A stretch of 64,000 nt of DNA from contig CANJCO010000001.1 of NCBI GenBank assembly GCA_947473045.1, forward strand, positions 186,001 to 250,000, given 5' to 3'. Of the stretch, positions 39,244 through 57,181 are shown piece by piece. The position numbers were made by a program, and so were the translations under genes. The notes under the pieces are model-generated. The model ran no database searches. It was not told the origin of the DNA and saw only the letters and a program-made list of their open reading frames with translations. Origin of the DNA: Myxococcales bacterium (GTDB lineage Bacteria > Myxococcota_A > Polyangia > Polyangiales > Polyangiaceae). The stretch's first letter is position 1, and each line of letters opens with the position of its first letter.

Positions 39244-39246
39244 GCC

Positions 39247-40152
39247 ATGGCCACCAAGAAGAAGCCCGACGCCGAGGCTCGCGACGAAGAGCTCCGCTCG
39301 AAGAAGCGTGACGACGAAGAAGACGACGCCGCCGACGACGCCGACGAGGCCGAAGCGCCGCCTGCCGCCGCCGCGAAAATGGCCGCTCCCGACTCACCCC
39401 AGGGCGGCGCGATGTACTCGGTGCGCAATGTCGTGACGATCATGAAGCGCGAGTTTCGCGCCTATTTCGACTCGCTCGTCGCCTACGTGGTTGTCGGAGT
39501 GAGCATGCTGCTCCTCGGCCTGTACTTCTTCTTCTACCGAGGCGGATTTTGGCAGGTCGACCGCGCCACGATGGCGCCGCTGTTCGACATCATGCCCTTC
39601 GCGGTGTGCGTGATGACCCCCCTCGTCACCATGGGGGCGCTGGCCGAAGAGCGCCGCTCGGGCACCATCGAGCTGCTCATCACGATGCCGGTTCGTGACA
39701 GCGAAGTCGTGCTCGGAAAGTTCTTCGCCGCGCTCGGCATGTGCGGCATTTTGCTGCTCGCGTCGGTGGTTTATCCGCTCGCGATGTTCGTGTGGCCCTG
39801 GCACCTCGGACCGCTCGACTGGGGCCCGATTTACACGGGCTACCTCGGGCTTCTCCTCATGTCGGCCGCGGGCGTCGCGCTCGGGCTCTTCTTCTCGAGC
39901 ATCACCGAGAGCCAGATCATCGCCTTCTTCATGTCGGTGTTCTCGCTGCTGGTGCTCTACTCCATCGGCTACGTGGTCGAGGTCTGGCACAACTCCGCCG
40001 GCGACGTGATCAGCTTCGTCAGCTTCCAGACCCGCTATCTGCCCTTCGCGCGAGGCATCATCGACACCCGCGCCGTCGTCTACTTCTTGTCGATCGCCAT
40101 CTTTGGCTTACTGGCCGCCTTCCGCTCTCTCGAGAGCCGGAAGTGGTCCTGA
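39247..40152 (+). CDS. ABC-2 type permease (GldF-like) with a charged N-terminus
   Basis: A 301-residue membrane protein. The first 55 residues are highly charged and Ala-rich (DEELRSKKRDDEEDDAADD) and would lie in the cytoplasm. The remaining part has six helices with the ABC-2 pattern, including VRNVVTIMKREFRAYFDS before the first helix and LAEERRSGTIELLITMPV in the coupling region. It starts 3 bases after the ATPase stop. The oppositely placed charged tails of ATPase and permease could guide assembly; this is inference. Confidence 0.88.
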   Translation: MATKKKPDAEARDEELRSKKRDDEEDDAADDADEAEAPPAAAAKMAAPDSPQGGAMYSVRNVVTIMKREFRAYFDSLVAYVVVGVSMLLLGLYFFFYRGGFWQVDRATMAPLFDIMPFAVCVMTPLVTMGALAEERRSGTIELLITMPVRDSEVVLGKFFAALGMCGILLLASVVYPLAMFVWPWHLGPLDWGPIYTGYLGLLLMSAAGVALGLFFSSITESQIIAFFMSVFSLLVLYSIGYVVEVWHNSAGDVISFVSFQTRYLPFARGIIDTRAVVYFLSIAIFGLLAAFRSLESRKWS

Positions 40153-40170
40153 GAGCAGGAATCAAACACC

Positions 40171-42018
40171 ATGGCCATGGAACGCAAGACGAAGGCAGCG
40201 ACTGAGAGCCTTGTTCTCGTCATCATCATCGGGCTCATTCTCGTCGCCATCAACGCCCTGTCGGCGTTGGGCGTGTCGGCGAAGAAGGACCTCACCCGCA
40301 ACGAGCGCTTCACGCTCTCCAAGGGCAGCGGCAACCTCATCAAATCGATGAAGCAGAACCTCCAGGTCGACGCCTACGTCACCAAGGGTCTGCCCAAGCT
40401 CGACGCGTTCGTCCGCGACCTGCGCGATTTGCTCGAGGAATACAAAGCCAACTCGGGCGGCAAATTCGACTACCAGCTCATCGAAGCGAAAGACGACGAC
40501 CAGAAAAAGGCGGCCAAAGACGCCGGCCTCGTCGAGCAGCCCTTCGGCGAAGCGAGCGAAACCGAAGAAAAATCCGGTGCGGTCACGCAGGGCTACATGG
40601 GCCTCGTGATCAAGTACGGCACCGAGAAGGACGCCATCAAGTTCCTCTCGCCCGACCAGAGCACGGGCCTCGAGTTCTGGATCACCAACAAAGTCCGCGA
40701 AATTCGCGACCGCGGTGACGGCATCAAGCACAAAATCGGCGTCCTTTCGGGCCACGAAGAAATCAAGCTGAGCGAGGCGAACCTGGTGCCCGCGCAGGCC
40801 GGCAAGGCCTCGATGCAGGACATCATCACGCGCAACTTTCCGTTCTATTCGATTCAGGACGTAGACCTGAAGGGCGGCGACGCCGAGATCGACGACAGCC
40901 TCGACGGCCTGATCATCACGCAGCCGGGCAAAGACCTGACCGAAAAAGAGCTGCGCCGCATCGACCAGTTCGTCATGAAGGGCAAGAGCCTCGCGATGTT
41001 CACGAGCTTCGTGAACGTCAAAGAGCACGACGCCTCCATGAGCGCGTCGCTCAGCGCGCACGGTCTCGACAAGCTGCTCGACGGCTACGGCATCGAGATG
41101 CGCAAAGACGTGGTGCTCGATTTCGGCCGCAGCTTCCGCGTCAACATCATGACCCAGGGCGGCATGGCGAGCGCCAAGTTCCCGCAGATGGTCGACGTCA
41201 TCAACGACACGCAGTTCAAAGACGACGACGCGCTGCTCGACACGAGCTTCGCGGGCTTTTTCCGCATCGAAGAAATCGCGATGCCCTTCACGTCGTCTCT
41301 CGTTCTGCACAAGGACAAGCAGCCCGACGTCGAACCGAAGAGCTTCAAGGTTGTCGCCCGCTCGACGCCGTTTGCTATCCGAAAGACGGAAGATACCGTC
41401 GACCTCGGCGCATTCCAGGCCTGGAAGCCCAAGGGCGAGTGGCAACAGTTCAACCTGTCGGCCACGGTCGAAGGGCGCCTGAAGAGCGCGTTCCCCGCCG
41501 GTGACAAGCAGGGCGTCGAAGCGGCGGCCCAGGTCGCCACGGGCAAAGTGGCCCGCGTCTTCGTGGTGTCGTCCAGCCAGTTCCTCGCCAATCCCTTTGC
41601 GCGGGCCGGCAACGGTCAGGACATGCAGCAGTTCGGCATGGCCATGCCCATGGGCGGCGACGAGAAGCTGCTCCAGATCGCGAGCCCCTACGCACAGCAG
41701 GCGCTCACCAACACGATCCTCTCGTTCAAGAACACCCTCGACTGGCTGAGCGGTGACGTCGATCTTCTCGCAGTGAGCGCGAAGATCCTGAGCGAGCCGA
41801 CGCTCGTTTACGGCGACGTTCGCGCCCCCAAGTTCGATCCGAACGAGACCGAAGAGGACATCAAGCGCCGGGAGAAGAGCATCCGCGAGGCTCGCAAGAC
41901 CACGCAGAACACCATTCAGTGGTCGCTCATCCTGCTCGTACCGATTCTCTTTTCGCTCTACGGCGTCCTCCGCTGGAGGATGCGCATGGCGTCGCGTATG
42001 AACGCGCGGCTGGCCTGA
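40171..42018 (+). CDS. GldG-like ABC-system auxiliary protein
   Basis: A 615-residue protein of the GldG / ABC-type uncharacterised transport family. It has one membrane helix near the N-terminus (VLVIIIGLILVAINALSAL), a large exported part that starts with the typical DLTRNERFTLSKGS, and a final helix near residues 585-605 followed by a basic end. In Bacteroidota GldA-GldF-GldG support gliding; in other phyla the same set exists without that role. Here it lies between the permease and the DUF4340 gene with short gaps. Confidence 0.85.
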   Translation: MAMERKTKAATESLVLVIIIGLILVAINALSALGVSAKKDLTRNERFTLSKGSGNLIKSMKQNLQVDAYVTKGLPKLDAFVRDLRDLLEEYKANSGGKFDYQLIEAKDDDQKKAAKDAGLVEQPFGEASETEEKSGAVTQGYMGLVIKYGTEKDAIKFLSPDQSTGLEFWITNKVREIRDRGDGIKHKIGVLSGHEEIKLSEANLVPAQAGKASMQDIITRNFPFYSIQDVDLKGGDAEIDDSLDGLIITQPGKDLTEKELRRIDQFVMKGKSLAMFTSFVNVKEHDASMSASLSAHGLDKLLDGYGIEMRKDVVLDFGRSFRVNIMTQGGMASAKFPQMVDVINDTQFKDDDALLDTSFAGFFRIEEIAMPFTSSLVLHKDKQPDVEPKSFKVVARSTPFAIRKTEDTVDLGAFQAWKPKGEWQQFNLSATVEGRLKSAFPAGDKQGVEAAAQVATGKVARVFVVSSSQFLANPFARAGNGQDMQQFGMAMPMGGDEKLLQIASPYAQQALTNTILSFKNTLDWLSGDVDLLAVSAKILSEPTLVYGDVRAPKFDPNETEEDIKRREKSIREARKTTQNTIQWSLILLVPILFSLYGVLRWRMRMASRMNARLA

Positions 42019-43184: not shown

Positions 43185-44420
43185 CTATCTTCGAACGTCG
43201 ACCTCGGCGCCCACGCTCATTCCGGCGCGCAGCGGTTTGTCGGCGGGGGGGCTCAGGAGCTTGATGCGGACGGGCACGCGCTGGACGACCTTCGTGAAAT
43301 TCCCGGTCGCGTTGTCGGGAGGCAGCAGGCTGAACCGCGCGCCTGTGGCTTGCGCGATGCTGTCGATCTCGCCGCGAAAATGGGCCCCCGGGTACGCGTC
43401 GACGTCGATCGCCACCGACTGACCCACGTGCATTTTCGCCAGCTGGGTTTCTTTGTAGTTTGCAACTATCCACGCGCCTTCGAGGGGCACGACCATCACG
43501 ACGCTTTGGCCCGCCGCGAGCATCTGGCCTGGCGTCACCGATTTCTTCGACGCCACTCCGTCGCGCGGCGCGGAAATCTTCGTGTACGAAAGGTCGAGCG
43601 CGGCGAGGTCGCGCTGCGCCTGAGCCATGTCGACCCGCGCCCGCGCGACGAGCGAGCGTGCGCGCGAAGATGCGATCTGCGCGTCGACCGTGTTGCTCTG
43701 CCCGAGCCGGGCCTGCGCCTCGAGAATGCGCGCCTGCGCCTGCGACGTGTTCGCCTTCGCGAAGGCGAGGCGGGCCTTGGCGCTCGCGAGGTTGGCGTCC
43801 GCGGCGTCGAAGCCGGTTTGCGCCGAATCGAGCTGGGCTTTGGCGATGGCGCCGCTTTCATAGAGCTTGCGCGTTCGGTCGAGCTCGGTCAGCGACTGCG
43901 TGCGGTTGGCGGTCGCGGCGACGACGGTGGCGTCGGCCTGAGCGACCTCGTCGGCGTTCGAGGTGATGCCCACGTTCGCGCCTTGCAGCGACGCCTCGGC
44001 GACCGACTTCTGGCCCTTGACCGAGCTCTCCGTCACCTTCACGTCGCTGTCGGCCCCGTCGGCCTGCGCCTTCGCAGACGCCAGCTCTGCCTGCGCCTGC
44101 GCGAGCCTTGCCCTGGCTTGCGCGTCGTCGAGCTCTACGAGCACGTCGCCCGCCTTCACCGGCTGGTTGTCGCTGAAGTTCACCTTCGTGACGAGCCCGC
44201 CCACGCGCGCGGGGACGCTCACTACGTCGGCCTCGACCTGCGCGTCGTCGGTCGATTCGCGACCCGAGCTTGCGGCGTAGTAGCCGGCGATGATCACGCC
44301 TGCGGCAGCCAGAACGCCGAGCGCGATGACTCGCGGGCGTTTGCTCCCGCCGGCCTTGACCTCGGCGCTCTGCGGCGCGGCGTTTGCCTCGGAAGTCACG
44401 TTCGTCGTCGCCATTTTCAT
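43185..44420 (-). CDS. emrA: HlyD/EmrA-type membrane fusion protein
   Basis: A 411-residue periplasmic adaptor with one N-terminal helix (VIALGVLAAAGVIIAGYYA), a lipoyl half (VSVPARVGGLVTKVNFSDNQ), a long Ala/Gln-rich alpha-hairpin of about 160 residues, the second lipoyl half and a beta-barrel end. Adaptors of this type link an inner-membrane pump to an outer-membrane channel. It overlaps the pump gene by ATGA. No TolC-like gene is in the window, so an outer channel must come from elsewhere. The hairpin is longer than in E. coli EmrA, with extra Ala-rich repeats. Confidence 0.9.
   Translation of the reverse strand: MKMATTNVTSEANAAPQSAEVKAGGSKRPRVIALGVLAAAGVIIAGYYAASSGRESTDDAQVEADVVSVPARVGGLVTKVNFSDNQPVKAGDVLVELDDAQARARLAQAQAELASAKAQADGADSDVKVTESSVKGQKSVAEASLQGANVGITSNADEVAQADATVVAATANRTQSLTELDRTRKLYESGAIAKAQLDSAQTGFDAADANLASAKARLAFAKANTSQAQARILEAQARLGQSNTVDAQIASSRARSLVARARVDMAQAQRDLAALDLSYTKISAPRDGVASKKSVTPGQMLAAGQSVVMVVPLEGAWIVANYKETQLAKMHVGQSVAIDVDAYPGAHFRGEIDSIAQATGARFSLLPPDNATGNFTKVVQRVPVRIKLLSPPADKPLRAGMSVGAEVDVRR
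43454..43464. repeat. TGYANNNTRCA site (TGTAGTTTGCA)
   Basis: Inside emrA (minus); coding strand reads ATA GTT GCA AAC TAC, including the rare ATA. Confidence 0.55.
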
Positions 44421-46012
44421 ATCTCCACGGCCGCATGCTCCGCTGACGGAGCCTTCGACAAATCGGGGGTGTCCAGAAGTACGACGAAGGGAATCGCCGC
44501 GAAAAACAGCAGTCCGGCCAGGTAGAAGGCCTTCTCGAAGCCGAGCATCGCGGCCTGTCCCGACACCTGCATGTCAAGCATGTGAAGCGCTCGCGCCGTG
44601 GCGGTCGCGGCATCGACGCCGTCGCGTCCGAGGGCCCGCTGCATCGCGATGAGGCGTGCCTGCACTTCGGGATCGGTGACCGACAAGTGCGCGACAACCG
44701 CAGCGCGCGCCTGGTGGGAAAATCTGCCGAGCGCCGCTGCGAAGATGGCGACGCCGAAGCTGCCGCCGAGCTGCCGCACGAGGTTGTTGAGCCCGGTGGC
44801 GTCGCTCATCCGGCGTCGCTCGATGGTCGCGAGCGACACGGTTGAGAGCGGAATGAAGATGCACGCGAGCGCGACGCCCTGCAGGACCTGCGGAATGAGG
44901 ATCTGCGCCGGGCTCGTCTGAAGCGTAAAATGGCTCATTTGCAGGCAGGTGACGCCGCCGAGCCCGAGCCCGAACGCGATGACGAGCTTGGGTGAGATCT
45001 TGTTGTAGAGCGCGCCCACGATGGGAATGGTGACCAGCATGGTCAGCGACCGCGGCATCAGCGCGAGCCCGGTCTGCGTGGCGTTGTAACGCAGGAACTC
45101 CTGCATATAGAGCGGCAGCAGAAACAGCGATGAGAACAGCACCGCGCCGAGAATCGCGCCGATGGCCGTTCCGGTGGCGAACGAGCGGTTTTTGAGCACG
45201 CGCAAGTTCACGATCGGAGACTCGGTCTGGAGCTCGTGCACCACGAACATCAGCAGCGCGCCGACGCCGACGGTTGCGTACGCCACGTCGAGCTTCGACT
45301 CGAACCAGTCGTTCTGCTCACCCTGCTCGAGCAGCGTCTGGAGGGCGGCCAGGCCGAGCACGAGCAGTCCGAGTCCCGTCCAGTCGACCTTGCCCTTGAT
45401 GCGCTCGAAATAGGGCGGATCCTCAACGAAGTGCCACACCATCGCGAGGCCAAGCACCCCCACCGGGAGGTTGATGTAGAAGATCATGGGCCACGAGTAG
45501 TTGTCGACGATGTAGCCGCCGAGCGTCGGGCCGATCGCAGGGCCGATCATGATCGCGAAGGCATACAGCCCCATCGCCATGCCCTGCTCTTTGGGTGGAA
45601 ACGTCTCGCGCAGGATGGCCTGCTCGGTCGGCTGCAGGGCGCCGGCGCCCATGCCCTGCAAAATGCGGAAGAACACGAGCGGCCCGAGCGAGCGCGCCGT
45701 GCCGCAGAAAAGCGAGCCGAGCAGAAACAGCGCGAGGCCGAGCATGTAGATGCGCTTGCGGCCGAAGCGAGCCCCCAGCCACGCGGTGATCGGCATGACG
45801 ATCACGCTCGCGACCACGTAGCCGGTTGAAATCCACGTGATCTCCTCGACCGTCGCCGAGAGCGTGCCGCGCAACTGGGGGAGCGCGACGTTGACGATGG
45901 AGGTGTCGATCGTGCCCATGAGGGTGCCGAAGGTCACCGCCGCCGCGATCACCCACTTGTTCTTCTTCGCCGCAAGCGCGGGCGCTGCGCCCAAGGTGAC
46001 GGTCGCGCTCAT
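44417..46012 (-). CDS. emrB: DHA2-family drug efflux MFS transporter (EmrB-like)
   Basis: A 531-residue, 14-helix major facilitator pump. The DHA2 features are visible: MGTIDTSIVNVALPQL in helix 1, WISTGYVVASVIVMPITAWL, the motif GARFGRKRIYMLGL, RILQGMGAGALQPTEQAIL and a motif-C-like GPAIGPTLGGYIVDNYSW. It should export hydrophobic compounds by proton antiport with the adaptor encoded downstream. The start at 46012 overlaps the tetR stop (ATGA), so the whole unit is coupled. Confidence 0.93.
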   Translation of the reverse strand: MSATVTLGAAPALAAKKNKWVIAAAVTFGTLMGTIDTSIVNVALPQLRGTLSATVEEITWISTGYVVASVIVMPITAWLGARFGRKRIYMLGLALFLLGSLFCGTARSLGPLVFFRILQGMGAGALQPTEQAILRETFPPKEQGMAMGLYAFAIMIGPAIGPTLGGYIVDNYSWPMIFYINLPVGVLGLAMVWHFVEDPPYFERIKGKVDWTGLGLLVLGLAALQTLLEQGEQNDWFESKLDVAYATVGVGALLMFVVHELQTESPIVNLRVLKNRSFATGTAIGAILGAVLFSSLFLLPLYMQEFLRYNATQTGLALMPRSLTMLVTIPIVGALYNKISPKLVIAFGLGLGGVTCLQMSHFTLQTSPAQILIPQVLQGVALACIFIPLSTVSLATIERRRMSDATGLNNLVRQLGGSFGVAIFAAALGRFSHQARAAVVAHLSVTDPEVQARLIAMQRALGRDGVDAATATARALHMLDMQVSGQAAMLGFEKAFYLAGLLFFAAIPFVVLLDTPDLSKAPSAEHAAVEI

Positions 46013-46692
46013 GGCTGCCGGCTCCGCTTCGCTGCTGAGCCCTTCATGAAGACCTCGACGACATCGGCGGCGCGGTCTACGGCGCGCCCCTCGCCCGCGA
46101 GCAGGGCGTCTTGCGTCAGAGCGCGAAGCACGCCGACGAGCACGCGCCCGAGCAGAAGCGGGCCGAGGCGCGGTTGAAGTACGCCTTCGTCGATGCCCTC
46201 GGCCATCAGCGCGACGACCTCGCGACGGAGCCGATCGATCTGCCTCGGGCGGCGTCCTTTGAGCACCATCGCGCTCGCGCCGGAGCTTGGCCCGATCAGC
46301 CCGTAATCGATGACGACGGCGAAAAAAGGGCGGTGCGCGTCCTGATAGGCAAGGATGCGGCCGAGTCGGCCCTCGAGGCGCGCGCCGAATGACGGGCCGT
46401 CCCCCGGCGCTGCCGCGAAGCGCTCGACCAGCGCCGCGGTGTGCTCTTCGAGCAGGGCGAGCAGCACGTCTTCTTTTTGCTCGAAGTGATTGTAGACGGT
46501 GCCCACTCCGATGCGCGCGCGCTCGGCGATGTCTTGAATGCGGGCGGCGTGAAAGCCCCTCTCGAGAAATACGACGGCCGCGGCCTCGAGGATGGCGCGC
46601 TTGAAAACGGCCTTCGCTTCGTCGCGCGGGGCAACGAGCGCGGGACGCTTCGAGGAGGACTGGCGCGCAGGGCTCACACGGTGAACCATCAT
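46009..46692 (-). CDS. TetR-family repressor of the efflux operon
   Basis: A 227-residue regulator with a TetR-type helix-turn-helix (GFHAARIQDIAERARIGVGT then VYNHFEQKEDVLLAL) followed by a helical ligand-binding domain and a basic C-terminus. It is the first gene of the tetR-emrB-emrA unit and overlaps emrB, so it probably controls its own operon and releases it on binding a pump substrate. The operator should lie between 46692 and the divergent gene at 46779; I see no clear palindrome there. Confidence 0.9.
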   Translation of the reverse strand: MMVHRVSPARQSSSKRPALVAPRDEAKAVFKRAILEAAAVVFLERGFHAARIQDIAERARIGVGTVYNHFEQKEDVLLALLEEHTAALVERFAAAPGDGPSFGARLEGRLGRILAYQDAHRPFFAVVIDYGLIGPSSGASAMVLKGRRPRQIDRLRREVVALMAEGIDEGVLQPRLGPLLLGRVLVGVLRALTQDALLAGEGRAVDRAADVVEVFMKGSAAKRSRQP

Positions 46693-46778
46693 TCACCTTC
46701 CGAACTGAGTCAACGACGACGTCGCGCCCGCCCATGCGGGCGCCGCGTGAGGCGGTGGCCAAGCGCGCCGGGACCGCT

Positions 46779-47750
46779 ATGCTGCCGCCCGTGCGTTCCT
46801 TTGCCCTCGCCGCGTGCGGTTCGATCGTCCTTGCTTGCGGCGCATCGAGGCCAGCGCCGATCGCTTCGCCGGCGGCTGAAGCTGCGCATCCGCTCCGCGC
46901 CCCGCGGCGATTTCCGATCGCCTACGCGCTCGAAGGGCGACCGTTTCCGCTCCCGATCGCGCGGGTCACCGTCGCGGGCGTTCCCACCCTCGCGCTCGTT
47001 GACTCGGGTGCCAACAGTCACGTGATCGCCGGGTGGCTGGCGCGCAAGGCGGGGCTTTCGACCGTTGTCATGGGCGACATGGGCACCGACCACACGGGTA
47101 GCCCGATCGCGACGCGCCGTGCGCCGCGCGGGCAGATCGCCATCGAGTCGTGGGGCCCCCTGCCGGACGCGCCTGCGCTCGTCACCGAAGTGCCCGAGGC
47201 CGTCGCGCGGCTGGGCATAGGCGTGTTTCTGTCGCCGCAGCAGCTCGCGAGCGAGCGGTATCCGGTGCTCCTCGACCTCCGGGAACGCGAGCTAAGGGAG
47301 GCGCCCGATGAGGCTGATTTCAGGTCGATTTCGCGCGGAGCCAGCGCCCTCACTGCGCTGCCGGCGCGCGCGTGCATCGACGAAGAGAGCCCCTTGCTGG
47401 GGCGCGTCTTCGTCGTGCGCGGCAAAGTCCGCGGCGAGTCGGTCGACCTGCTGCTCGACACCGGCGCGCAGCACACCGACGTGCTCGCCTCTTCTGCCGC
47501 GGGCAAGGCGCTCGCGCCTCTGAGCGCCGCCGGAAGCGACGCCGTCTACGCCGCGAGCGGCAAAGTCTCGACGCGCACCGTGCAGCAGGCGAGCGTCGCG
47601 ATCGGCGAGGTCGCGGCCGTCGTCGACGTCGACATCATCGCCGGCCAGCAGGACCCCTTCTGTCCCCGCGACGGAGTGGTCGCGATGGACGTGCTTTCGC
47701 GCTGCGCGATGCTCTTCCGCGATCGTGATGTGCGTGTAGTCTGCAGATAA
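46779..47750 (+). CDS. Lipoprotein with two retropepsin-like aspartic protease halves
   Basis: About 323 residues. A lipoprotein signal ends IVLAC (Cys20). Two copies of an aspartic protease active-site motif follow: VDSGANS with Asp75 and LDTGAQH with Asp227, each preceded by a hydrophobic strand. Retropepsin-like bacterial enzymes usually carry one motif per chain and act as dimers, so this looks like a tandem single-chain version, in effect a pseudo-dimer anchored to the membrane. An additional in-frame GTG at 46791 is an alternative start. The gene ends 1 base from the convergent radical SAM gene. Confidence 0.75.
   Translation: MLPPVRSFALAACGSIVLACGASRPAPIASPAAEAAHPLRAPRRFPIAYALEGRPFPLPIARVTVAGVPTLALVDSGANSHVIAGWLARKAGLSTVVMGDMGTDHTGSPIATRRAPRGQIAIESWGPLPDAPALVTEVPEAVARLGIGVFLSPQQLASERYPVLLDLRERELREAPDEADFRSISRGASALTALPARACIDEESPLLGRVFVVRGKVRGESVDLLLDTGAQHTDVLASSAAGKALAPLSAAGSDAVYAASGKVSTRTVQQASVAIGEVAAVVDVDIIAGQQDPFCPRDGVVAMDVLSRCAMLFRDRDVRVVCR
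47735..47745. repeat. TGYANNNTRCA site (TGTAGTCTGCA)
   Basis: Covers the last codons of the retropepsin lipoprotein gene (GTA GTC TGC AGA, then TAA). Confidence 0.5.
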
Positions 47751-47751
47751 T

Positions 47752-49785
47752 TCAGGACACGATCTGCAGCCGAATGCGCTTGCCCGGGGCGGCCTTCGCG
47801 GCGCGCTCGGCGTCGCGCGCTTCGAGGGCCAGCGCGCTCTCGGGCAGGGTGACCGTGCCCAGCGCGTCCGGGAGCGGGAGCTCCTGATTTTTGGCGTAAA
47901 CGGGGTGCCGGCCCTGCTCGCGGTACCAGTCGGCGACCGAGGCGTTGGCCTTCATTTTCTCGATGACGTTTCGCCAGCCCACGCCCGTGTTGTAGGCGCA
48001 GAAGCTGATTTCTCCCATCTGCGTTCCGTAGGGGATGATGCACATTTCGGTGCGGCGGAAGTCGTAGTTGAACAGGTCCTGAAACCACATGCCCGCAACG
48101 AACAGCAGCCGCCACTCGAACTCGCCGGCGTCGCTCTCGTACTCGCCGATGGCCCCGCCCCGCGTGCCGGTCTGGCTGCGAAACTGACCCAGCAGGTCGG
48201 CGAACGTGTAGCCGGCGGGGGCCTCGTCGGGCTTGAAGTTTTTGAGCAACGCCAGCGCGACTTGCCCGAGCAGGACAGCCCTCGGCTGGTTGCCGTCGGT
48301 CACGTCGCCGACGTCGCGAAGCAGCTGGTCGAGGTCGAGAAAACGGCTGAGCGGCACCATCTCCTTGGTGCGCTTGTTGACGAACAGGATCGTGCCCATG
48401 CCGCAGTTGGGATGGCAGCCGCAGTTGAGCGCGCCAAACTCGGCGTTTTGGCTGAGCAGATCGGCCAGATCGCTGAGCGGACCCATCGCCGAGAGCGGGA
48501 ACCAGTCGCGCATGGGCTCGGTGGCGCCGGTCTGCTCCTTCACGTCGTGGGCGAGTTGGCTCAGCGTGTAGCGTTGACGCGCGCGGTCGTCGTCGGAGAT
48601 GTCCTCGTCACGCCCTGTGAAGCTCACCGGCTGAAAGCTCACGACCGTGATTTTGTCGGCGTTTTCGATCGCGAAGTCGATAATCGGACCGACCTGATCG
48701 TCGTTGACGCTGCCCACGACCGTGACCACGAGCACGACGTCGATGCCTGCAGCATGCAAGTTTTCGATGGCGCGCTGCTTCACGTCGAACAGGTTGCCGA
48801 CCTTGCGGTGGCTGTTGGCGAGGTTGGTGACGCCGTCGAACTGCAGGTAGGCGAGGCGGAGTCCGGCCGCTTTGGCCTGCACGCAAAGCTCGCGGCTCTG
48901 GGCGAACGCGATGCCGTTGGTTGCGCACTGCACGCAAAAATAACCGACGTCGCGGGCGTACTGGATGGCCTGCAAAAAGTGGGGTGACAGCGTGGGCTCT
49001 CCCCCCGAAAACTGCACGCTGAGCTGACGCCGCGGCTTGATCGAGAGCGAGTCGTCGAGGATCTGCCGCACTTCGTCCCAGCCGAGCTCGTGCACGTAGC
49101 CGACCTGGTTGGCGTCCATGAAGCACGGGTCGCACATCATGTTGCAGCGGTTGGTGAGGTCGACGGTGAGCACGCTGCCGCGCCCGTACTTCACGCTGCT
49201 CGTGCCGTGGTTGCGCAGCTTGCTCAGCGGCGCGAGAAAGTCGCGTCCGGGATACAGCTGCTCGATGCGCCCGGTAAACGCGGGGTCAACCGACATGACG
49301 TCTTCGAACCTGCCGTGCGTCGGGCAGTCTTTGACCATGAGCAGCTGCCCGTCGCGCTCGAGGATCGTGGCCCGGATCTCGCCCGGCTTGCCGTGGATGA
49401 GCGTGGAAATATCTTTGACGCCGCCTAGAATATCGGCGCGCACCTCACGAACGCACTTGGGGCAAAGCGAGTCGGTCGTGCGCGGCCATCCCAGCTCGGG
49501 AAAGGTCTTTTCGCGGCGCTTTTTCAGGGGCTCGGGCGCCCACTTCGGGTGCGGCGACGGGCGCTCGAAGCGCTGATTGTAGCGCTGCACGAGCGGCCAC
49601 GCGAGGCCTGCCGCGCTGGACGCGAGGCGCTCGCCCACGCGCACGAGGCGCTTCCAGCCGGTGTCGTCGGCGCCGGTTCGGGCTGGCCTCGGGGCCACGC
49701 GTTCGCCGGGCCGGTGGTCGGGGCGAGGCGCGCCGCTGGCGGTTGCGGGGTGCGGCGCAGGAATCGTGACGGAGGGCATGGCCAT
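47752..49785 (-). CDS. Radical SAM protein of the Tes/MJ0619 (COG1964) type
   Basis: A 677-residue radical SAM enzyme. After a low-complexity start come CPKC (Cys108, Cys111) and DCPTHG (Cys154), the usual N-terminal metal site of this family. Then follow the radical SAM motif CNMMCDPC (Cys214, 218, 221) in VLTVDLTNRCNMMCDP and GGEPT at 261-265. A later Cys cluster CGCHPNCGMG gives further cluster ligands. The archaeal member MJ0619 (Tes) couples lipid tails to make tetraether lipids; others were annotated as pterin methyltransferases. The match is by motif order only, so the substrate in this bacterium is open. Confidence 0.75.
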   Translation of the reverse strand: MAMPSVTIPAPHPATASGAPRPDHRPGERVAPRPARTGADDTGWKRLVRVGERLASSAAGLAWPLVQRYNQRFERPSPHPKWAPEPLKKRREKTFPELGWPRTTDSLCPKCVREVRADILGGVKDISTLIHGKPGEIRATILERDGQLLMVKDCPTHGRFEDVMSVDPAFTGRIEQLYPGRDFLAPLSKLRNHGTSSVKYGRGSVLTVDLTNRCNMMCDPCFMDANQVGYVHELGWDEVRQILDDSLSIKPRRQLSVQFSGGEPTLSPHFLQAIQYARDVGYFCVQCATNGIAFAQSRELCVQAKAAGLRLAYLQFDGVTNLANSHRKVGNLFDVKQRAIENLHAAGIDVVLVVTVVGSVNDDQVGPIIDFAIENADKITVVSFQPVSFTGRDEDISDDDRARQRYTLSQLAHDVKEQTGATEPMRDWFPLSAMGPLSDLADLLSQNAEFGALNCGCHPNCGMGTILFVNKRTKEMVPLSRFLDLDQLLRDVGDVTDGNQPRAVLLGQVALALLKNFKPDEAPAGYTFADLLGQFRSQTGTRGGAIGEYESDAGEFEWRLLFVAGMWFQDLFNYDFRRTEMCIIPYGTQMGEISFCAYNTGVGWRNVIEKMKANASVADWYREQGRHPVYAKNQELPLPDALGTVTLPESALALEARDAERAAKAAPGKRIRLQIVS
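48748..48758. repeat. TGYANNNTRCA site (TGCAGCATGCA)
   Basis: Inside the radical SAM gene (minus); coding strand reads TTG CAT GCT GCA. Confidence 0.5.
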
Positions 49786-49874: not shown

Positions 49875-51119
49875 ATGGAACGCACCGGGCCGAAGCGGGC
49901 GACAGCGTTACTCTTGATGCTCGCGTGCTGCGCGCGGTCTCCGCTGCCTGCGGCCGCGCCAGCGTCGGTCGCTACGCCGCGCGACCTCGCGCAGGACGAG
50001 GCTCGCGTGCTTCTGGCGTTGTCGCGGGGCGACGGCCGCTTCGCGCGGCGGGCGGGCGTGCGCCCGACGGAGGCCGAGCTGCACACCCAGGCGTTGGCCG
50101 CGATACTGGCCGAGGACACGAGCGCGCGCATGGAGGGCGATCGCCCCGATTTGTTCTCGTTCGACTTGCGCGAGCGCGCCATCGGCGAAGCCGCAGATTT
50201 GGCTGCGCAATACACGCATCTCCCGGGAGCGAACGCGCTCGAGGCCGCGCGCCTCACGGGACTGGTCGCGGAGGAGCGGAGTCGACTGGCTCACGAGCGC
50301 GCGCTGCCCTGGGGAGCGCCGACGCTCCTTCGCGGACTCGCCGAGACGTGGTCGGAAGGCGCCTCACCGGCAGAAGCAGAGGCGGCGGACGCGCGGCTCG
50401 CGGCGCGTCTCGGCCAAGTCGACGGCTCGCTCGCGGCGCTCACGCCCGAGCTGCGCGACGCGCTCGAGTCGTCGCTCGATCCGATCGAAGCGAAGCTGAG
50501 CTGGTCGATGCGGCGATCGCAGGGCGCGCTCGTGAAGCTGCGTGTGCGCCTCGCGGAGGCGACCCTGTCAGCCGATGGCCCGGTGGGCGCGGCGCTCACT
50601 CCCGAGGCTGAAAACAAGCTTCAAACGCTCTGCGAGGAGCTCGGCAAAGTAGCGGGCGACAGCGGCGGCGAGGCGCCCGCGCTTCCGCTCGCGGGCAGCG
50701 CTTGCCGGCTTTCGGGAGGCGGATCGGTTGTGGGCGCGCTCATCGCGCCGCCGGAGCGCACCGTCCTGTGCGGGCTGATCAAGGCGCTCGCGACCGGAGC
50801 GCCGAACGCTGCGCTCGTGGCTGCGTTTCACGATCGGCTTGTCGTCGCGCTGTGGGCGACGCGCATGGCTTCGGGGATGCCGGCGGGCGAGGCGATCGGG
50901 CGCCCACGGCCGCTCACGGCGATGAGTCCGGGCCTCGAAGCCGCGTGGACGCGCGAGGCGGCGCTGGACAGCGAAGCGGCGCAGGCCACAGCCAAGGCGA
51001 TCGCCTGGCTGTTCGCCAACGGCGTGAGCGAAGCTCCGGCGCGCGCCCGCGCATGGGACGCGCTCGGCGACGGGCCGGTCGACCTCGCGATAAACGCCCT
51101 TAAAATAGCCTTGCCATAG
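49875..51119 (+). CDS. Lipoprotein of unknown function
   Basis: A 414-residue protein with a lipoprotein signal ending LMLAC (Cys18, followed by a second Cys) and an otherwise almost wholly helical, Ala/Glu/Arg-rich body without a motif I know. It ends about 110 bases before the A2M gene on the same strand and might share its transcript. A weak inverted repeat (GCATCGA at 51141 with TCGATGC at 51160) lies in the gap but has no T-run. Position suggests an envelope role with A2M and PBP1C. Confidence 0.6.
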   Translation: MERTGPKRATALLLMLACCARSPLPAAAPASVATPRDLAQDEARVLLALSRGDGRFARRAGVRPTEAELHTQALAAILAEDTSARMEGDRPDLFSFDLRERAIGEAADLAAQYTHLPGANALEAARLTGLVAEERSRLAHERALPWGAPTLLRGLAETWSEGASPAEAEAADARLAARLGQVDGSLAALTPELRDALESSLDPIEAKLSWSMRRSQGALVKLRVRLAEATLSADGPVGAALTPEAENKLQTLCEELGKVAGDSGGEAPALPLAGSACRLSGGGSVVGALIAPPERTVLCGLIKALATGAPNAALVAAFHDRLVVALWATRMASGMPAGEAIGRPRPLTAMSPGLEAAWTREAALDSEAAQATAKAIAWLFANGVSEAPARARAWDALGDGPVDLAINALKIALP

Positions 51120-51232
51120 ATATTTTTCAAAAGCGGAAGCGCATCGATCCGGCGTGCGTTCGATGCTGCGGCGGCTGTAGTAACTTTCCCGGGCCGCCCG
51201 TTAAGGCAGCAACCGATGGAGACGCGACCTTG

Positions 51233-54200
51233 ATGAACCGAAGATTCGCTGGCCGACTTGCTCTGACCGCGCTGGTGGCGAGCTGCCTTCACGGCGCCCC
51301 TGCCGCGTCGCCGACCGCGACGCTCTCCATCGGCGACAGCGCCAACCAGCCGCGCGCGCGCTCTGCCTATGCCGTCGTGTTCGGAGGGCCGCAGGGCGTC
51401 GTCGCCAATCGGAGCGAGCCGGGCGTGACGCTGCTGTTCAATCGCGCGCTGCATTCTCTCGAGGATGAGAGCGCTGCCGATCGCCCTCCCGCGATCCCGG
51501 TGCGAACGGCGGCGGGTGACGTGGTGGAGGGCTCGTGGCGGTGGGTCGGCACGCGCGGCCTTCTGTTTACGCCGAACGCTGATTTGCCGGGGTCCACCGC
51601 GTTTGAAGTGACGGTCGCCAAAGACATCAAGTCGCTCGAAGGGGAGGCGCTCGCGAGCGAGTACAAGCTCGCGTTCTCGACGGAGCGGCCTCGCGTCTAC
51701 GCCCTGTCGCCCAGCGAAGGCGCGGCGACCCTCAGGCCCGACGCGTCGATCCGCGTCGACTTCAACCAGCGCATCGAACCCGAGGCGTTCGCGAAGGTCG
51801 GGCACTTGCTCGCGCGCGCTTCCGGCGCCGCGAAGGCGACCCCGCTTGCGTTTCATTCGCAGCACCCCAAGCTCGGCGAGCGGGCCGAGCGCACCCTGCT
51901 CGTCACGGCCGATGCGCCGTTGCCGCTCGACGCATCGATCGAGCTCGTGATCGACAAGGGGCTTCGCGGCGAGGGGCCGCTCGTCTCCGACGTGGCGACC
52001 AACCTGCACGTTCGTACCTATGGACCGATCGCCCTGGCCCACGTGCGCTGCCCGCGCGTCCGCGACGATGCGCTCGGGCGCTGTCAGGCGCACCGCGACA
52101 TCACCGTCGAGCTGTCGAACGCGGTGATGCCCGATGAGTTTCGCGCGCACCTGAAGCTGCCGAAGATTGCTCGCGTCGCCCCGCCAAAGCAGGCTCAAAA
52201 GCGCGCGCCCCGCGCCGAGTCGTCGCTCGAGCTGGCCGTCGACCCCGAGTTCGGAAAGCGGTACCGCTTCACCCTCACCGCCGGGTTGACCGACGTCTAC
52301 GGCCAGCGCCTCGCGAAAGACGTTCCGTTCGACGTCGACATCGAAGCGGCGTTTTCTCAGGGGCTGCCGGACGCCGCCGCCGGCTCAGACGAGCGCTCCG
52401 AGCCCGTCGCCCCAGAGCCTCCGCCGCCTCCGCCGCCGTCCGTGTCGTCGCGCGCGATCCCGCCGCTGACAGCCGAGCTCGGGATCTCGGGCTATGTCGT
52501 CGAAGCGGCCTCGCCCTCGCCCAGGAGACTCTCCGCCGCGCTCGTGAACGTGCCGACGTTCGGTCTGTTCACCGCGAAGGTTCAGCCGCGCGAAGCGGCC
52601 CAGGTCCTGCTGGGCACCGAGGCGGCGCCCGGGGGCTTCCTCGCGGGAGGCTACCGCTTCGCCTGGCAGTCGCCGCAGCCGGCAGCCAACACGCGCTTCG
52701 TCGAGTCGATCGACCTCGAAGCGCTCATGGGCCCCACGCGCCGCGGCGTCGGCCTCGTCGCGCTCGGCGTTCCCGGCAGCGATGAGCCCCGGGCCAGGCA
52801 GCTCGTCAACCTCACCGACCTCGCGATTACGGCTAAAATGAGCCGTTTCGGTGGCATCGTATGGGTCACCAGCCTGTCGACGGGCAAGCCGGTCGCCGGC
52901 GCTGAAGTCTCGGTCGGCGCGCTGAAAAGCGAGGCCCTCGCCACGTTCGTCACTGACGCGCATGGTGTCGTCACCATTCCCAAAGAGGCGCTCTCGCCGG
53001 TGCTGCTGACGCGCGACGCCTACGAGTGGCGCTCCGCTACGGTCGACACGGGCGGCGTGGTCTTCGCGAAGCTGGGCGACGACTGGACGTACGAGCGCCT
53101 CGAAAACGGGCAAAACTTCCGCCGCGCAGCCGGCGATGTCGACCTGGCGGCCTCCCGCGAGTGGCAGGCCGCAGTGTTCGCGGATCGCGGCGTTTACAGG
53201 CCCGGCGAGACGGTCAAGCTCGCGGCGGTCGTGCGCCAGGCGGACGCGCGCGGACTCACGATCGCCGAAGGGCGCGAGGTGCGCGTGCGCCTGAAAGATG
53301 CGCGCGACGAGTCGCTCTTCGACGGACGCGCGAAGCTCGGCGCGTTCGGCTCGTTTTCGATCGACGTGCCGATTCCGAAGAGCGCTCACCTCGGCGATGC
53401 CACGGCGAGCGTTGAGCTTCCAGGGCTGCGCGAGGCGCACTTCGACACCAACGTGCTCATCGCCGACTTCAAGGCGGTCGAGTTCAAGGTCTCGGTCTCG
53501 CCCGACAAGTCAGCCTACGTTCGCGGTGATTCGGCGCGCTTTTCGGTGCGCGGCGAGTACCTCTTTCAGGCGCCGATGACCAACGCGGCGGCGCACGTCA
53601 CCGCGGTGCGCGAGGTGACGGCGTTCACGCCGGCTAACACCGAAGGGTTCGTCACGAGCGACGAGGCGTTCACGTCCGACTACGGCGACAAGAGCGCGCG
53701 CGCCGGCTCGCTGCTCGAGGCCGACGCGACGCTCGATGCAGGGGGAAACTTCACGCAACCGCTCGACTTGACGATGCCCGGCCAGACCGCGGCCGAGCGC
53801 GTCGCGTTCGAGTCCGACGTCGAGGACTTCACGCGGCAGGTCGTCGCCGGATCGGCCTCTGTGCTCGTGCATCCGGCTGAGTTTTATGTCGGCGTGCGTC
53901 GTTCCGCCTCGCGCTTCGTGGCCGTGGGCGCCACGGTCGCTCCCGAAATCATCGCCGTGTCGCCCGAAGGCGCTCGGGTCCCGGGCAACAAAGTGCATGT
54001 AGAGCTCATGCAACGCACGTGGACAACGGTTGTAACCGACAGCCCGGGCGGAGACGGATCGCGGCGCTCGAAGGTCGAAGACGTCTTGTCCGATGCGTGC
54101 GACGCGGTCACGGCCGCCGGCCCGGCCTCTTGCGCGCTGCGCGTGCCCGCTGCGGGCTATTTCATCGTGCGCGCCACAGCCACCGATCGCCGCGGAAACA

Positions 54201-57181
54201 CCGTGCGCTCCAGCTTTTCGCTCTACGCGCTCTCCGACTCGCCCGACGTGGGCGCGCGCGCGCTGGGCTGGGCCGAGAGCGACGCGCGCGTCGTGAAGAT
54301 CGAGGCCGACAAGGCTGCGTATCAGCCGGGCGAGACGGCGAAGTTGCTGGTGCGAAGCCCGTTCAAAGAGGCCGAGGCGCTGGTCACAGTCGAGCGTGGC
54401 GGCGTGATGAGCACCCGGACGATGACGCTGCGCGGACCGATGCCCGTGGTCGAAGTTCCGATCGCGCACGACTACTTTCCCAACGTGTTCGTGTCGGTGC
54501 AGCTCGTGCGCGGCCGCGTTCAGGCGGCCCCCGCCAGCGGAGCCGACCTCGGCCGACCCGACTATCGCATCGGCTACTCCGAGCTCGCGGTGAGCGCGGA
54601 CTCGCATCGGCTCAAGGTCGAGGTGAAGTCGGCGAAGAAGGACTACCGGCCGGGCGACCAGCTCGAAGCCGACGTGGTCGTGCGCGACGCAACCGGAGCC
54701 CCGATGCGTGCAGACCTCACGTTTTATGCGGTCGACGAGGGCGTCCTCATGCTCACCGGCTACAAAACGCCCGATCCGCTGGCGGCCTTCACCAAGCGCC
54801 GATCGCTGGCCGTATTCGGCATGGACAGCCGCGACCATCTGGCGATGCTCAAGGCCTACAAAGTCGGAGAGCGCCTCGCGAACCTCGGCTATGAGCGGCT
54901 CAACGCAGACGGCGCGTCCTCGGACGACAAGGGCTCGTACGGCGGCGGCGGCGGCGACGGACCGGGCGCGGGCGGAAAGCGGCTCGACTTCCGCAACACA
55001 GCGTTCTTCGAGGCGGGGCGCGTGACCGCAGCCGACGGCTCCGCGCACTTTTCGTTCAAGCTCCCCGACAACCTCACTTCGTTTCGGTTGATGGCCGTAG
55101 CCTCTACGGCCGACCGCTTCGGTTCGGGCGAGAGCAGCGTCACCAGCTCCAAACGCCTCATGGCGCGCCCTGCGCTTCCGAGGGCCGTTCGCGTTGGCGA
55201 CAGCTTCGAGGCGAGCGTCGTGGTCAGCACCAAGGCGCTTGGCGCCGCAGCAGTCGACGTCGAAATCGCGTCGGGCTCGGCCGCGATCGCGATCGAAGGC
55301 GCGCGCGCGCAGCATGTGCAGCTGGCGGCCGACGGCAGCGCCACGGTTCGCTTCGCGGCCGTCGCGAAGGCGCCGGGGGAGGCCGCGCTCACGTTCAAGG
55401 TGCGCGGAGCGGGCGACTCCGACGAAGTGCAGATTACACGTAAAGTGGCGCTGCCGCTGCGCCTCGAAACTGTCGCGGCGTTCGGCGAGACGACGCGCGC
55501 CGCGGCGATCGCGCTGGGTGATCTGTCGAAGCTGCGCGGAGACGTGGGCTCGCTCGAGGTGCACCTGGCCTCGTCGGCGCTCGTGGGGCTGCAGTCGGCG
55601 TTCGAGCAGCTGTCGGACTATCCGTACGGCTGCACCGAGCAGCTCGCGAGTCGCATGCTGCCGCTCGTGGCGCTCACCGATCTGGCGAAATCCGCGGGCG
55701 TCCGTACTCCCGCCCGCGGCGACGCGGCGATCGACGCTGCGGTCAGCGAGCTGATCGCGCACCAGCAGGACAGCGGCGGCTTTGGCTACTGGAGCGACGA
55801 CGAGGCTGTGCCCTGGCTGTCGGCGTACGCAGTGCTCGCGCTCGATGCTGCCGGCAAACAGGGCACGTTCGTGCCGCGCAGCGCGCTCGACCGCGGAGTC
55901 GACTACCTTCGCGAACGACTCGCTGCGATGGCCCTTCCGCCGAAGGTGGCCGACGACGACGACCTCGGGAGCGCCGCGATCGCTCCGGAGAGCAAGGACG
56001 CCGAGGCGGAGCGGTACGCGCAGGCCGTCTTCATCGCCGACGTGCTGGCGACGCTCGGAACGGGCGATCCCGGGCTGCTCAGCCGCCTCTACGACTCCCG
56101 CGCGCAAAAGTCGCTCGCATCGCAGGCCATGCTGCTGCACGCGATGGCGCGGGCGCACCTGTCGAAGACGGAGCTTGAAGTGCTCGCCGCCGAGCTGACG
56201 GCAAGGCTGCGCGTGGACGCGAACGCGGCGTTCGCCGAGGAGACCGGCGCGCAGCTCGCGCCCATGCTCGACTCGCCGGTGCGCACGACGGCGCTCGCCC
56301 TGCGGGCGCTGCTCGCCGTCGATCCGAAGCGTCCGATCGCGTCGCGCCTCGCCAAGGGGCTGCTCGGCGCGCGGAAGACCGGCGCCTGGGGCTCCACACA
56401 GGACAACGCCTGGGCGCTCATGGCGCTCGATGACTATCGCAAAGCGCAGGAATCAGAGCCTGCGGCCTTCGACGCGGCTGTGTTTCTCGGCGAAGAAGCG
56501 ATCGGGTCAGCCTCGTTCCGCGACGGCTCGATCCACGACGAGCGCATCAGTCTGCTGCCGTCGAAGCTGCGCGCGCTGCGCGGCCCGCTCGGGTTCTCGG
56601 TCACCGGCAAGGGCACCCTCTTTTACTCGGCGGAGCTGCGCGGTGAGATCGCCGATCTGCCGCAGAAGCCGGTTGATCACGGCCTCTACGTGCAAAAGAC
56701 GATGCGGAGCCTGAAGCTGTCTGAGCTCGACGCCGCGATGCGCGTCATTCCGCGCACGACGAGCCTCACTGCGCGCGCCGGCGAGCTGGTCGTCGTCGAC
56801 CTCATCGTCGAATCGGCCGAGCCGCAGGAGCAGGTCGTCATCGTCGACCCGCTGCCGGCGGGGCTCGAGGCGATCGACTTCGATCTGCAGACTTCGGGGC
56901 GCTCGCGCGACGCGAGCCCGGGCACCGACGCAGCGCTCGCGAAGGGGGCCGAGAAGGCGCTCGGAATGGCGTTCCGGACGGCGCCTTTTCACCGGGAAAT
57001 GCGCGACGATCGCGTGCTCACGTTCGTGCCGCACGTGGCGCCCGGGCTGTACCACTTCCGCTACCTCGCGCGCGCCACGGTCGTGGGGCGCTTCGTGGTT
57101 CCGCCAACAAGTGCAGAATGCATGTATTCGCCCGAAGTGTTCGGTCGTACGCGGGCCTCGACCTACGAGATCGCGCGCTGA
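51233..57181 (+). CDS. Bacterial alpha-2-macroglobulin (YfaS/YfhM-like) lipoprotein with thioester
   Basis: A 1982-residue lipoprotein (signal ending LVASC, Cys18) with the modular macroglobulin plan: an N-terminal Ig-like region, MG domains including VYRPGETVKLAAVVRQ, a Gly-rich bait-like segment near residues 1230-1250, and the thioester motif YGCTEQLAS with Cys1467 and Gln1470 intact. A helical thioester domain and C-terminal receptor-binding-like domain follow. It should trap proteases that attack the periplasm. ATG at 51233 is used rather than the TTG just upstream. It shares one base (TGATG) with the PBP1C gene, the usual partner. Confidence 0.93.
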   Translation: MNRRFAGRLALTALVASCLHGAPAASPTATLSIGDSANQPRARSAYAVVFGGPQGVVANRSEPGVTLLFNRALHSLEDESAADRPPAIPVRTAAGDVVEGSWRWVGTRGLLFTPNADLPGSTAFEVTVAKDIKSLEGEALASEYKLAFSTERPRVYALSPSEGAATLRPDASIRVDFNQRIEPEAFAKVGHLLARASGAAKATPLAFHSQHPKLGERAERTLLVTADAPLPLDASIELVIDKGLRGEGPLVSDVATNLHVRTYGPIALAHVRCPRVRDDALGRCQAHRDITVELSNAVMPDEFRAHLKLPKIARVAPPKQAQKRAPRAESSLELAVDPEFGKRYRFTLTAGLTDVYGQRLAKDVPFDVDIEAAFSQGLPDAAAGSDERSEPVAPEPPPPPPPSVSSRAIPPLTAELGISGYVVEAASPSPRRLSAALVNVPTFGLFTAKVQPREAAQVLLGTEAAPGGFLAGGYRFAWQSPQPAANTRFVESIDLEALMGPTRRGVGLVALGVPGSDEPRARQLVNLTDLAITAKMSRFGGIVWVTSLSTGKPVAGAEVSVGALKSEALATFVTDAHGVVTIPKEALSPVLLTRDAYEWRSATVDTGGVVFAKLGDDWTYERLENGQNFRRAAGDVDLAASREWQAAVFADRGVYRPGETVKLAAVVRQADARGLTIAEGREVRVRLKDARDESLFDGRAKLGAFGSFSIDVPIPKSAHLGDATASVELPGLREAHFDTNVLIADFKAVEFKVSVSPDKSAYVRGDSARFSVRGEYLFQAPMTNAAAHVTAVREVTAFTPANTEGFVTSDEAFTSDYGDKSARAGSLLEADATLDAGGNFTQPLDLTMPGQTAAERVAFESDVEDFTRQVVAGSASVLVHPAEFYVGVRRSASRFVAVGATVAPEIIAVSPEGARVPGNKVHVELMQRTWTTVVTDSPGGDGSRRSKVEDVLSDACDAVTAAGPASCALRVPAAGYFIVRATATDRRGNTVRSSFSLYALSDSPDVGARALGWAESDARVVKIEADKAAYQPGETAKLLVRSPFKEAEALVTVERGGVMSTRTMTLRGPMPVVEVPIAHDYFPNVFVSVQLVRGRVQAAPASGADLGRPDYRIGYSELAVSADSHRLKVEVKSAKKDYRPGDQLEADVVVRDATGAPMRADLTFYAVDEGVLMLTGYKTPDPLAAFTKRRSLAVFGMDSRDHLAMLKAYKVGERLANLGYERLNADGASSDDKGSYGGGGGDGPGAGGKRLDFRNTAFFEAGRVTAADGSAHFSFKLPDNLTSFRLMAVASTADRFGSGESSVTSSKRLMARPALPRAVRVGDSFEASVVVSTKALGAAAVDVEIASGSAAIAIEGARAQHVQLAADGSATVRFAAVAKAPGEAALTFKVRGAGDSDEVQITRKVALPLRLETVAAFGETTRAAAIALGDLSKLRGDVGSLEVHLASSALVGLQSAFEQLSDYPYGCTEQLASRMLPLVALTDLAKSAGVRTPARGDAAIDAAVSELIAHQQDSGGFGYWSDDEAVPWLSAYAVLALDAAGKQGTFVPRSALDRGVDYLRERLAAMALPPKVADDDDLGSAAIAPESKDAEAERYAQAVFIADVLATLGTGDPGLLSRLYDSRAQKSLASQAMLLHAMARAHLSKTELEVLAAELTARLRVDANAAFAEETGAQLAPMLDSPVRTTALALRALLAVDPKRPIASRLAKGLLGARKTGAWGSTQDNAWALMALDDYRKAQESEPAAFDAAVFLGEEAIGSASFRDGSIHDERISLLPSKLRALRGPLGFSVTGKGTLFYSAELRGEIADLPQKPVDHGLYVQKTMRSLKLSELDAAMRVIPRTTSLTARAGELVVVDLIVESAEPQEQVVIVDPLPAGLEAIDFDLQTSGRSRDASPGTDAALAKGAEKALGMAFRTAPFHREMRDDRVLTFVPHVAPGLYHFRYLARATVVGRFVVPPTSAECMYSPEVFGRTRASTYEIAR
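55428..55438. repeat. TGYANNNTRCA site (TGCAGATTACA)
   Basis: Inside the A2M gene (plus); reads GTG CAG ATT ACA CGT AAA. Confidence 0.55.
57112..57122. repeat. TGYANNNTRCA site (TGCAGAATGCA)
   Basis: Near the end of the A2M gene (plus); reads AGT GCA GAA TGC ATG TAT. Confidence 0.55.

Follow-up and report, generated by a model that had tools for sequence, protein, structure and literature searches.

A tetraether-synthase-like radical SAM protein of the Polyangia belongs to a branch that lacks one metal cluster and may join the tails of membrane lipids

What does a relative of the archaeal tetraether synthase do in a myxobacterium? The gene that raises this question lies in a 64,000-nucleotide stretch of a Myxococcales genome, hereafter the window, where an open reading frame at 47752..49785 on the minus strand (P0001) starts with ATG, contains no internal stops and encodes 677 amino acids. 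The original prediction, made from the sequence, was that the product is a bacterial homologue of the tetraether synthase Tes (MJ0619) that might join lipid chains or else methylate a cofactor. The reading frame is a real, conserved gene, because orthologues at 59-82% identity were found in 60 of the 98 sampled genomes of its family, the Polyangiaceae, and because its codon-position GC is 0.66/0.45/0.88. The precise start codon is uncertain, and the first ~40 residues were modelled with a pLDDT of 26-38. A selenoprotein or readthrough gene was considered and rejected: a few stops were listed in relatives, yet the frames extracted for most of these were stop-free across the conserved core.

The gene is isolated, as had been noted originally. 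Its downstream neighbour (46734-47750, plus strand; aspartic-protease-like) is convergent with it and its upstream neighbour (49875-51119, plus strand; lipoprotein-like N-terminus) is divergent. When up to 10 kb on each side of 80 named loci was clustered by BLAST, no neighbour recurred beyond close relatives and no conserved neighbour tied the gene to lipid genes. Linked pterin biosynthesis genes were not found either, in line with the original remark that none lay nearby. Upstream of the radical SAM gene, at 51230-59628, a bacterial alpha-2-macroglobulin gene (1983 aa) and, after it, a penicillin-binding protein 1C-type gene make up the well-known A2M-PbpC pair. An ordinary efflux operon lies at 43185-46692, with genes for an HlyD/EmrA-like adaptor, an MFS pump and a TetR regulator in a row, and an ABC transporter ATPase with a GldG-like/ABC_transp_aux protein, resembling gliding-type ABC systems, is encoded at 38140-42018.

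Pfam matches to the window protein were Radical_SAM (8.9e-16) and Zn_ribbon_HMPTM, the N-terminal ribbon of MJ0619 (1.4e-13). Of 18,950 NCBI families the best was Tes, NF045702 (337 bits, E 1.7e-100), the runner-up was TrsS, NF045646 (206 bits), and families outside the Tes and TrsS models scored at most 72 bits. Both leading scores are below the respective cut-offs, the curated equivalog cut-off of 450 bits for Tes and that of 490 bits for TrsS. The sole strong PDB match was MJ0619, also called GDGT-MAS (7tol, E 3.1e-70, residues 137-620), and MJ0619/Tes is the best characterised relative of the window protein, with 32% identity over 463 columns. The predicted homology to Tes was thus borne out by the sequence scores, as it was by the tree and the predicted fold given below. 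The match to the multi-cluster family held as homology but not as membership in Tes proper, given the score below 450 bits and the absence of ligands for the N-terminal [4Fe-4S] cluster. Judged from sequence, the window protein is a member of a discrete branch, which we call clade A.

To place the metal sites, the window protein was aligned with MJ0619, whose residues are numbered here as by Lloyd et al. (PMC9433317); all features that follow are on the minus strand. The motifs named in the original prediction were confirmed. CPKC (codons 108-111, 49453..49464; C108/C111) is the first half of a rubredoxin-type Fe site (MJ0619 C9/C12), as judged from the motif and an alignment with bacterial Tes, and the CPTH of DCPTHG (codons 154-157, 49315..49326; C154/H157) is the second half (MJ0619 C33/H36). 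CNMMCDPC (codons 214-221, 49123..49146; C214/C218/C221) is the CX3CX2C motif of the radical SAM [4Fe-4S] cluster, and GGEPT is at 261-265. CGCHPNCG (455-462) belongs to the C-terminal auxiliary cluster; its segment CGCHPNC (codons 455-461, 48403..48423) holds the ligand C461 (= MJ0619 C338), plus C455 and C457. The remainder of the C-terminal cluster site is at codons 566-596 (47998..48090), with the labile Met566 (= Met439), C582 (= C455), Tyr586 (= Tyr459) and C596 (= C470). In the SAM-closing loop FQPVSFTGR (codons 384-392, 48610..48636), Gln268, Ser271, Thr273 and Arg275 of MJ0619 are conserved, and the SAM-contact residues of MJ0619 are kept throughout, Arg210 excepted. The exception among the clusters is the N-terminal one, where LRNHGTSSVKYGRG (codons 190-203, 49177..49218) stands in place of the [4Fe-4S] loop. 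The window protein therefore shares with MJ0619 (7TOL, 7TOM) the fold, the radical SAM core, the rubredoxin-type residues, a C-terminal [4Fe-4S] site with three Cys, the labile Met, Tyr459 and most SAM-contact residues, and differs from it in the N-terminal cluster, in a longer rubredoxin loop (42 residues rather than 20), in an N-terminal helix extension, in residues near the C-terminal cluster and in its bacterial host.

Conservation was scored in 96 clade A sequences, 33 acidobacterial sequences of Tes proper and 26 TrsS-like sequences. Equivalents of the radical SAM ligands, C33/H36, C338/C455/C470, Met439 and Tyr459 were kept in 96/96 clade A sequences, and C111 was missing in one of the 96. 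Counterparts of MJ0619 C73/C77/C80/H83, the ligands of the N-terminal auxiliary cluster, were missing in all 96. The bacterial Tes proper (472-619 bits; 32-38% identity to the window protein), which has been suggested to account for brGDGT in Koribacter and Solibacter, has a C-terminal site like that of the window protein, but all 33 sequences retain the N-terminal cluster and, save for one truncated at the rubredoxin site, all the other sites named. The original prediction had counted a lack of the extra cluster ligands against itself, and such a lack was found at one of the three extra sites, the N-terminal [4Fe-4S]. The TrsS-like proteins (17-30% identity) have the HMPTM ribbon and the order of N-terminal and radical SAM domains in common with the window protein; their pattern is the opposite of that of clade A, in that the N-terminal cluster is kept and Met439 (4/26) and Tyr459 (7/26) are mostly absent.

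Clade A also carries features of its own. Beside the C-terminal cluster, His440 of MJ0619 is replaced by Trp and His458 by Pro in 96/96 sequences, and Cys455 and Cys457 of the window protein are additional; outside clade A, the Cys455 of CGCHPNC was seen only in four Tes sequences (L217 and L219-L221). Because of these two replacements and the extra Cys455 at the C-terminal site, the chemistry or regiochemistry of clade A may differ from that of Tes. The rubredoxin loop is 42 residues long in 86/95 clade A sequences and 20 in 32/32 Tes sequences. The extension before the rubredoxin motif has a median length of 61 residues, against 15 in bacterial Tes, and includes a GWPR-like motif in 90/92 clade A and 0/31 Tes sequences. 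In the window protein this clade A-specific extension is predicted to contain a helix at codons 43-72 (49570..49659, minus strand), with a hydrophobic moment of 0.54 that was reached by 48 of 2000 shuffles; contact with the membrane is possible.

Two trees were made, a quick one of 77 sequences and a careful IQ-TREE analysis of 47 sequences from which the N-terminal-cluster columns had been removed; the archaeal sample was MJ0619 alone. Clade A plus Tes separated from the TrsS-like proteins with support of 100 in the 77-sequence tree and 100/100 by IQ-TREE, and clade A was one branch with full support in both. The family tree proposed as a check in the original prediction thus groups clade A with Tes and not with other radical SAM families. 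In the IQ-TREE analysis, clade A joined the four Cys455-bearing Tes sequences at 100/100 inside bacterial Tes, on a long stem branch of 1.35. Because it is nested in bacterial Tes, clade A appears to be a derived Tes lineage that lost the N-terminal cluster.

Structure prediction, the other check proposed, gave a whole-chain match to the MJ0619 fold. The AlphaFold2 model, built with 40 sequences, had a mean pLDDT of 78 and a pTM of 0.83 and was weak at residues 1-40, 222-228, 597-600 and the C-terminus. VIA-align matched it to 7tom with Z 40.3 and an rmsd of 2.8 A over 482/498 residues, the next match being MoaA at Z 19.4, and Foldseek put the two MJ0619 entries on top by 26 orders of magnitude. 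Other Foldseek matches (MoaA, viperin, SuiB, NifB) have only the radical SAM barrel in common with the window protein and were set aside.

The gene is no one-off but belongs to a large clade across Polyangia and Acidobacteriota. The Polyangiaceae orthologues scored at least 725 bits, and there were no scores from there down to ~112. In the window's phylum, 32/377 genomes had a match at 1e-35, all within the window's class, and no true Tes (>450 bits) was found among 116 genomes of relatives of the window genome. Named carriers include Sorangium cellulosum, Minicystis rosea, Polyangium fumosum and many Polyangia MAGs at 60-79% identity, and Acidobacteria at 54-62% (groups 1, 7 and 18, Bryobacterales, Blastocatellia, Pyrinomonadaceae). 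A Tes-like match was present in 189/346 Acidobacteriota genomes, 33/346 being above the Tes cut-off, and among the matches listed there was a gap between 350 and 472 bits. Clade A was found in 4/121 Gemmatimonadota genomes. The viral collection gave weak matches only (21-38% identity), and the plasmid collection gave only distant TrsS-like relatives, three of which were inspected. Two matches in the acidobacterial phylum search (L135 and L120; genomes G463 and G464) bear the titles 'Cyanobacteria bacterium' and 'Acidimicrobiia bacterium'; these NCBI titles are probably wrong. Many genomes of the Blastocatellia class (e.g. G460, G599, G748) carry two clade A copies, ~58% and ~52% identical to the window protein, which look like an old duplication and could split ester and ether substrates between them.

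This distribution can be set beside that of a membrane-spanning fatty acid. Iso-diabolic acid consists of two iso-C15 chains joined tail to tail; it is dominant in many soil acidobacteria and is presumed to form the core of the branched tetraethers that serve as climate proxies. The acidobacterial subdivisions SD8/10/23 are negative for it. Published work has shown iso-diabolic acid in SDs 1, 3, 4 and 6 (PMC13274423), at 12-30% of the fatty acids in six Edaphobacter strains (PMC11354219), and in Pyrinomonas (PMC4644332); a 2022 paper described the condensing enzyme as 'still unknown' (PMC10087280). Most of the cultured acidobacteria studied contain the diacid as a major component, with brGDGTs minor or below detection (PMC13274423, PMC10087280). 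Clade A was near-universal in the classes where iso-diabolic acid is usual, namely in 146/151 genomes (97%) of the class of G458 (Bryobacterales; SD1/3; Terriglobia, going by record titles) and in 100/104 genomes (96%), often in two copies, of the class of G460 (Pyrinomonadaceae; SD4; Blastocatellia, likewise by title), a match at class level that comprises few independent lineages and that any near-universal gene of those classes would give equally. Solibacter usitatus makes brGDGT with iso-diabolic acid undetectable (PMC10087280). In the order of G458, clade A was present in 197/232 genomes, a Tes-grade match only in 15/232 and neither in 20/232, and S. usitatus may therefore lack clade A. 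For the Polyangia, no report of diabolic acid was found in the open literature searched, where lipid reports were absent either way.

We consider it rather probable that the clade A enzyme, a radical SAM protein of the Tes superfamily, forms C-C bonds and has bacterial non-isoprenoid acyl (or alkyl) glycerophospholipids as its substrates. The joining of lipid chains suggested in the original prediction is thus the best reading of the protein. We infer the substrate, the product and every chemical step, while homology, fold, ligand conservation, N-terminal cluster loss and distribution are observed. If the enzyme works as MJ0619 does, SAM would be cleaved at the radical SAM cluster, and the resulting 5'-deoxyadenosyl radical would abstract a hydrogen from the tail of a first lipid chain. 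The C-terminal [4Fe-4S] cluster (C461/C582/C596) would then hold the carbon radical in a C-S bond, Met566 being kept in reserve, until attack by a second radical, formed on another chain, yields a membrane-spanning diacid, e.g. (iso-)diabolic acid, at a cost of two SAM per bond. In MJ0619 the first carbon radical is parked on the C-terminal cluster, and the protein as purified carries two bacterial phosphatidic acids in its active-site tunnel, so acyl chains fit the MJ0619 fold (PMC9433317). The likely product would be iso-diabolic acid in acidobacteria and a diabolic- or iso-diabolic-type lipid in Polyangia.

Because it keeps the C-terminal cluster and is near-universal in the groups with iso-diabolic acid, clade A is a natural candidate for the iso-diabolic acid enzyme, and more broadly a good candidate for the enzyme making the membrane-spanning fatty acids of soil acidobacteria. 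Tentatively, we put forward the bolder possibility that Acidobacteria owe their iso-diabolic acid to clade A, the missing synthase being a Tes that gave up one of its four metal sites and switched from isoprenoid ethers to ester-bound acyl chains, and that membrane-spanning lipids, so far unreported, are made by mesophilic Polyangia (Sorangium, Polyangium, Minicystis and the window organism). Two genomic associations lend weak support to a lipid role. In three acidobacterial genomes (G537, G718, G581), clade A and true Tes genes are neighbours, ~0.2-6 kb apart. The window genome also encodes (G000:C11; L265 2419-6132, minus strand) a protein of 1238 aa that combines two BcrAD_BadFG domains with DUF2229, a make-up like that of the PlsA/Ger ether-lipid enzymes. 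The DUF2229 family was present in 85/98 sampled Polyangiaceae genomes, in 59/60 with clade A and 26/38 without it (p 3e-5, uncorrected for kinship); by genus the co-occurrence was 27/27 vs 16/21 (p 0.012, likewise uncorrected). DUF2229 proteins also serve other roles.

The same associations, together with the nesting of clade A in bacterial Tes, would suit a strict tetraether synthase, an enzyme that would make a branched GDGT from two glycerol diethers supplied by a PlsA/Ger-like reductase, the route suggested for S. usitatus. This seems unlikely. The window protein is below the Tes cut-off, the carriers G583, G457 and G458 have no DUF2229 protein, and in the three genomes with adjoining genes true Tes would already cover that step; moreover, it is the diacid that is a major component of most cultured strains studied, brGDGTs being minor or undetected. 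The absent N-terminal cluster, the His-to-Trp and His-to-Pro changes by the C-terminal cluster, the extra Cys455 and Cys457, and the long stem branch could instead point to another kind of radical chemistry on a lipid or some other hydrophobic compound, such as an intra-lipid cross-link, C-S bond formation, a desaturation, or a reaction on a hopanoid or wax. The ligands of the Tes mechanism and Met439/Tyr459 are nevertheless invariant in clade A, and we regard such a departure as quite improbable.

Far less probable is membership in the TrsS-like, (seleno)protein-linked radical SAM group, which is also abundant in Polyangia. TrsS was the second-best NCBIfam model and the N-terminal ribbon is held in common, but the score falls far short of the TrsS cut-off, the trees separate the two groups, the group has the converse residue pattern at the N-terminal cluster and Met439/Tyr459, and no methyltransferase partner lies beside the window gene. 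Methylation of a cofactor such as a pterin, formerly ascribed to MJ0619 as a class D methylase and an option in the original prediction, has in its favour the Zn_ribbon_HMPTM match. That role was not corroborated when tested for MJ0619, whose active site is a hydrophobic tunnel (PMC9433317), and a recurrent partner gene was absent in the 80 loci; we give this option hardly any credence.

Acyl-tail coupling, the reading we prefer for clade A, has also been proposed for another enzyme, the membrane-spanning lipid synthase Mss of Thermotoga and Bacillota, which would likewise couple fatty acyl chains tail to tail. T. maritima makes diabolic acid. Searched with the Tes model at 1e-40, its genome gave no match, and its Mss is therefore unlikely to be a clade A protein. 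Mss reportedly shares the catalytic architecture of Tes (PMC13274423), and it could be the iso-diabolic acid maker in acidobacteria.

Two papers (PMC8941075, PMC11868695) treat the bacterial 'Tes homologues' as one group; the present analysis divides them into true Tes and a much more common clade that lacks the N-terminal cluster. Zeng et al. suggested that brGDGT is made by bacterial Tes homologues, among them one of Edaphobacter aggregans at 32% identity; the relevant passages of their paper do not set clade A apart, and its main text makes no mention of myxobacteria (PMC8941075). The E. aggregans homologue may well be clade A. Clade A is thus a large, little-noticed branch of the Tes family, and as it follows the groups with iso-diabolic acid, it offers a single candidate gene for iso-diabolic acid formation. 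The split sharpens gene-based surveys of brGDGT sources, shows that a natural relative of Tes can do without one of the three extra metal sites, and, through the distribution of clade A, predicts membrane-spanning lipids in myxobacteria.

TrsS-like genes were seen alongside in several genomes. In Polyangiales they occur as tandem, multi-copy radical SAM genes, as in Sorangium So ce26 (G467:C1:6468148-6518719; L189-L191) and at L240, L241, L244 and L246. These tandem genes score ~190-300 bits to the TrsS and Tes models, below both cut-offs, and their products keep the N-terminal cluster and mostly lack Met439/Tyr459. On a Salinirubellus plasmid (L254, 4130-6408) and a Mycolicibacterium vanbaalenii plasmid (L255, 4151-6519), a radical SAM gene is followed directly by a methyltransferase gene, with peroxiredoxin, CcdA or DUF547 genes near; each looks like a TrsS/TrsM-type pair, one in a haloarchaeon and one in a mycobacterium.
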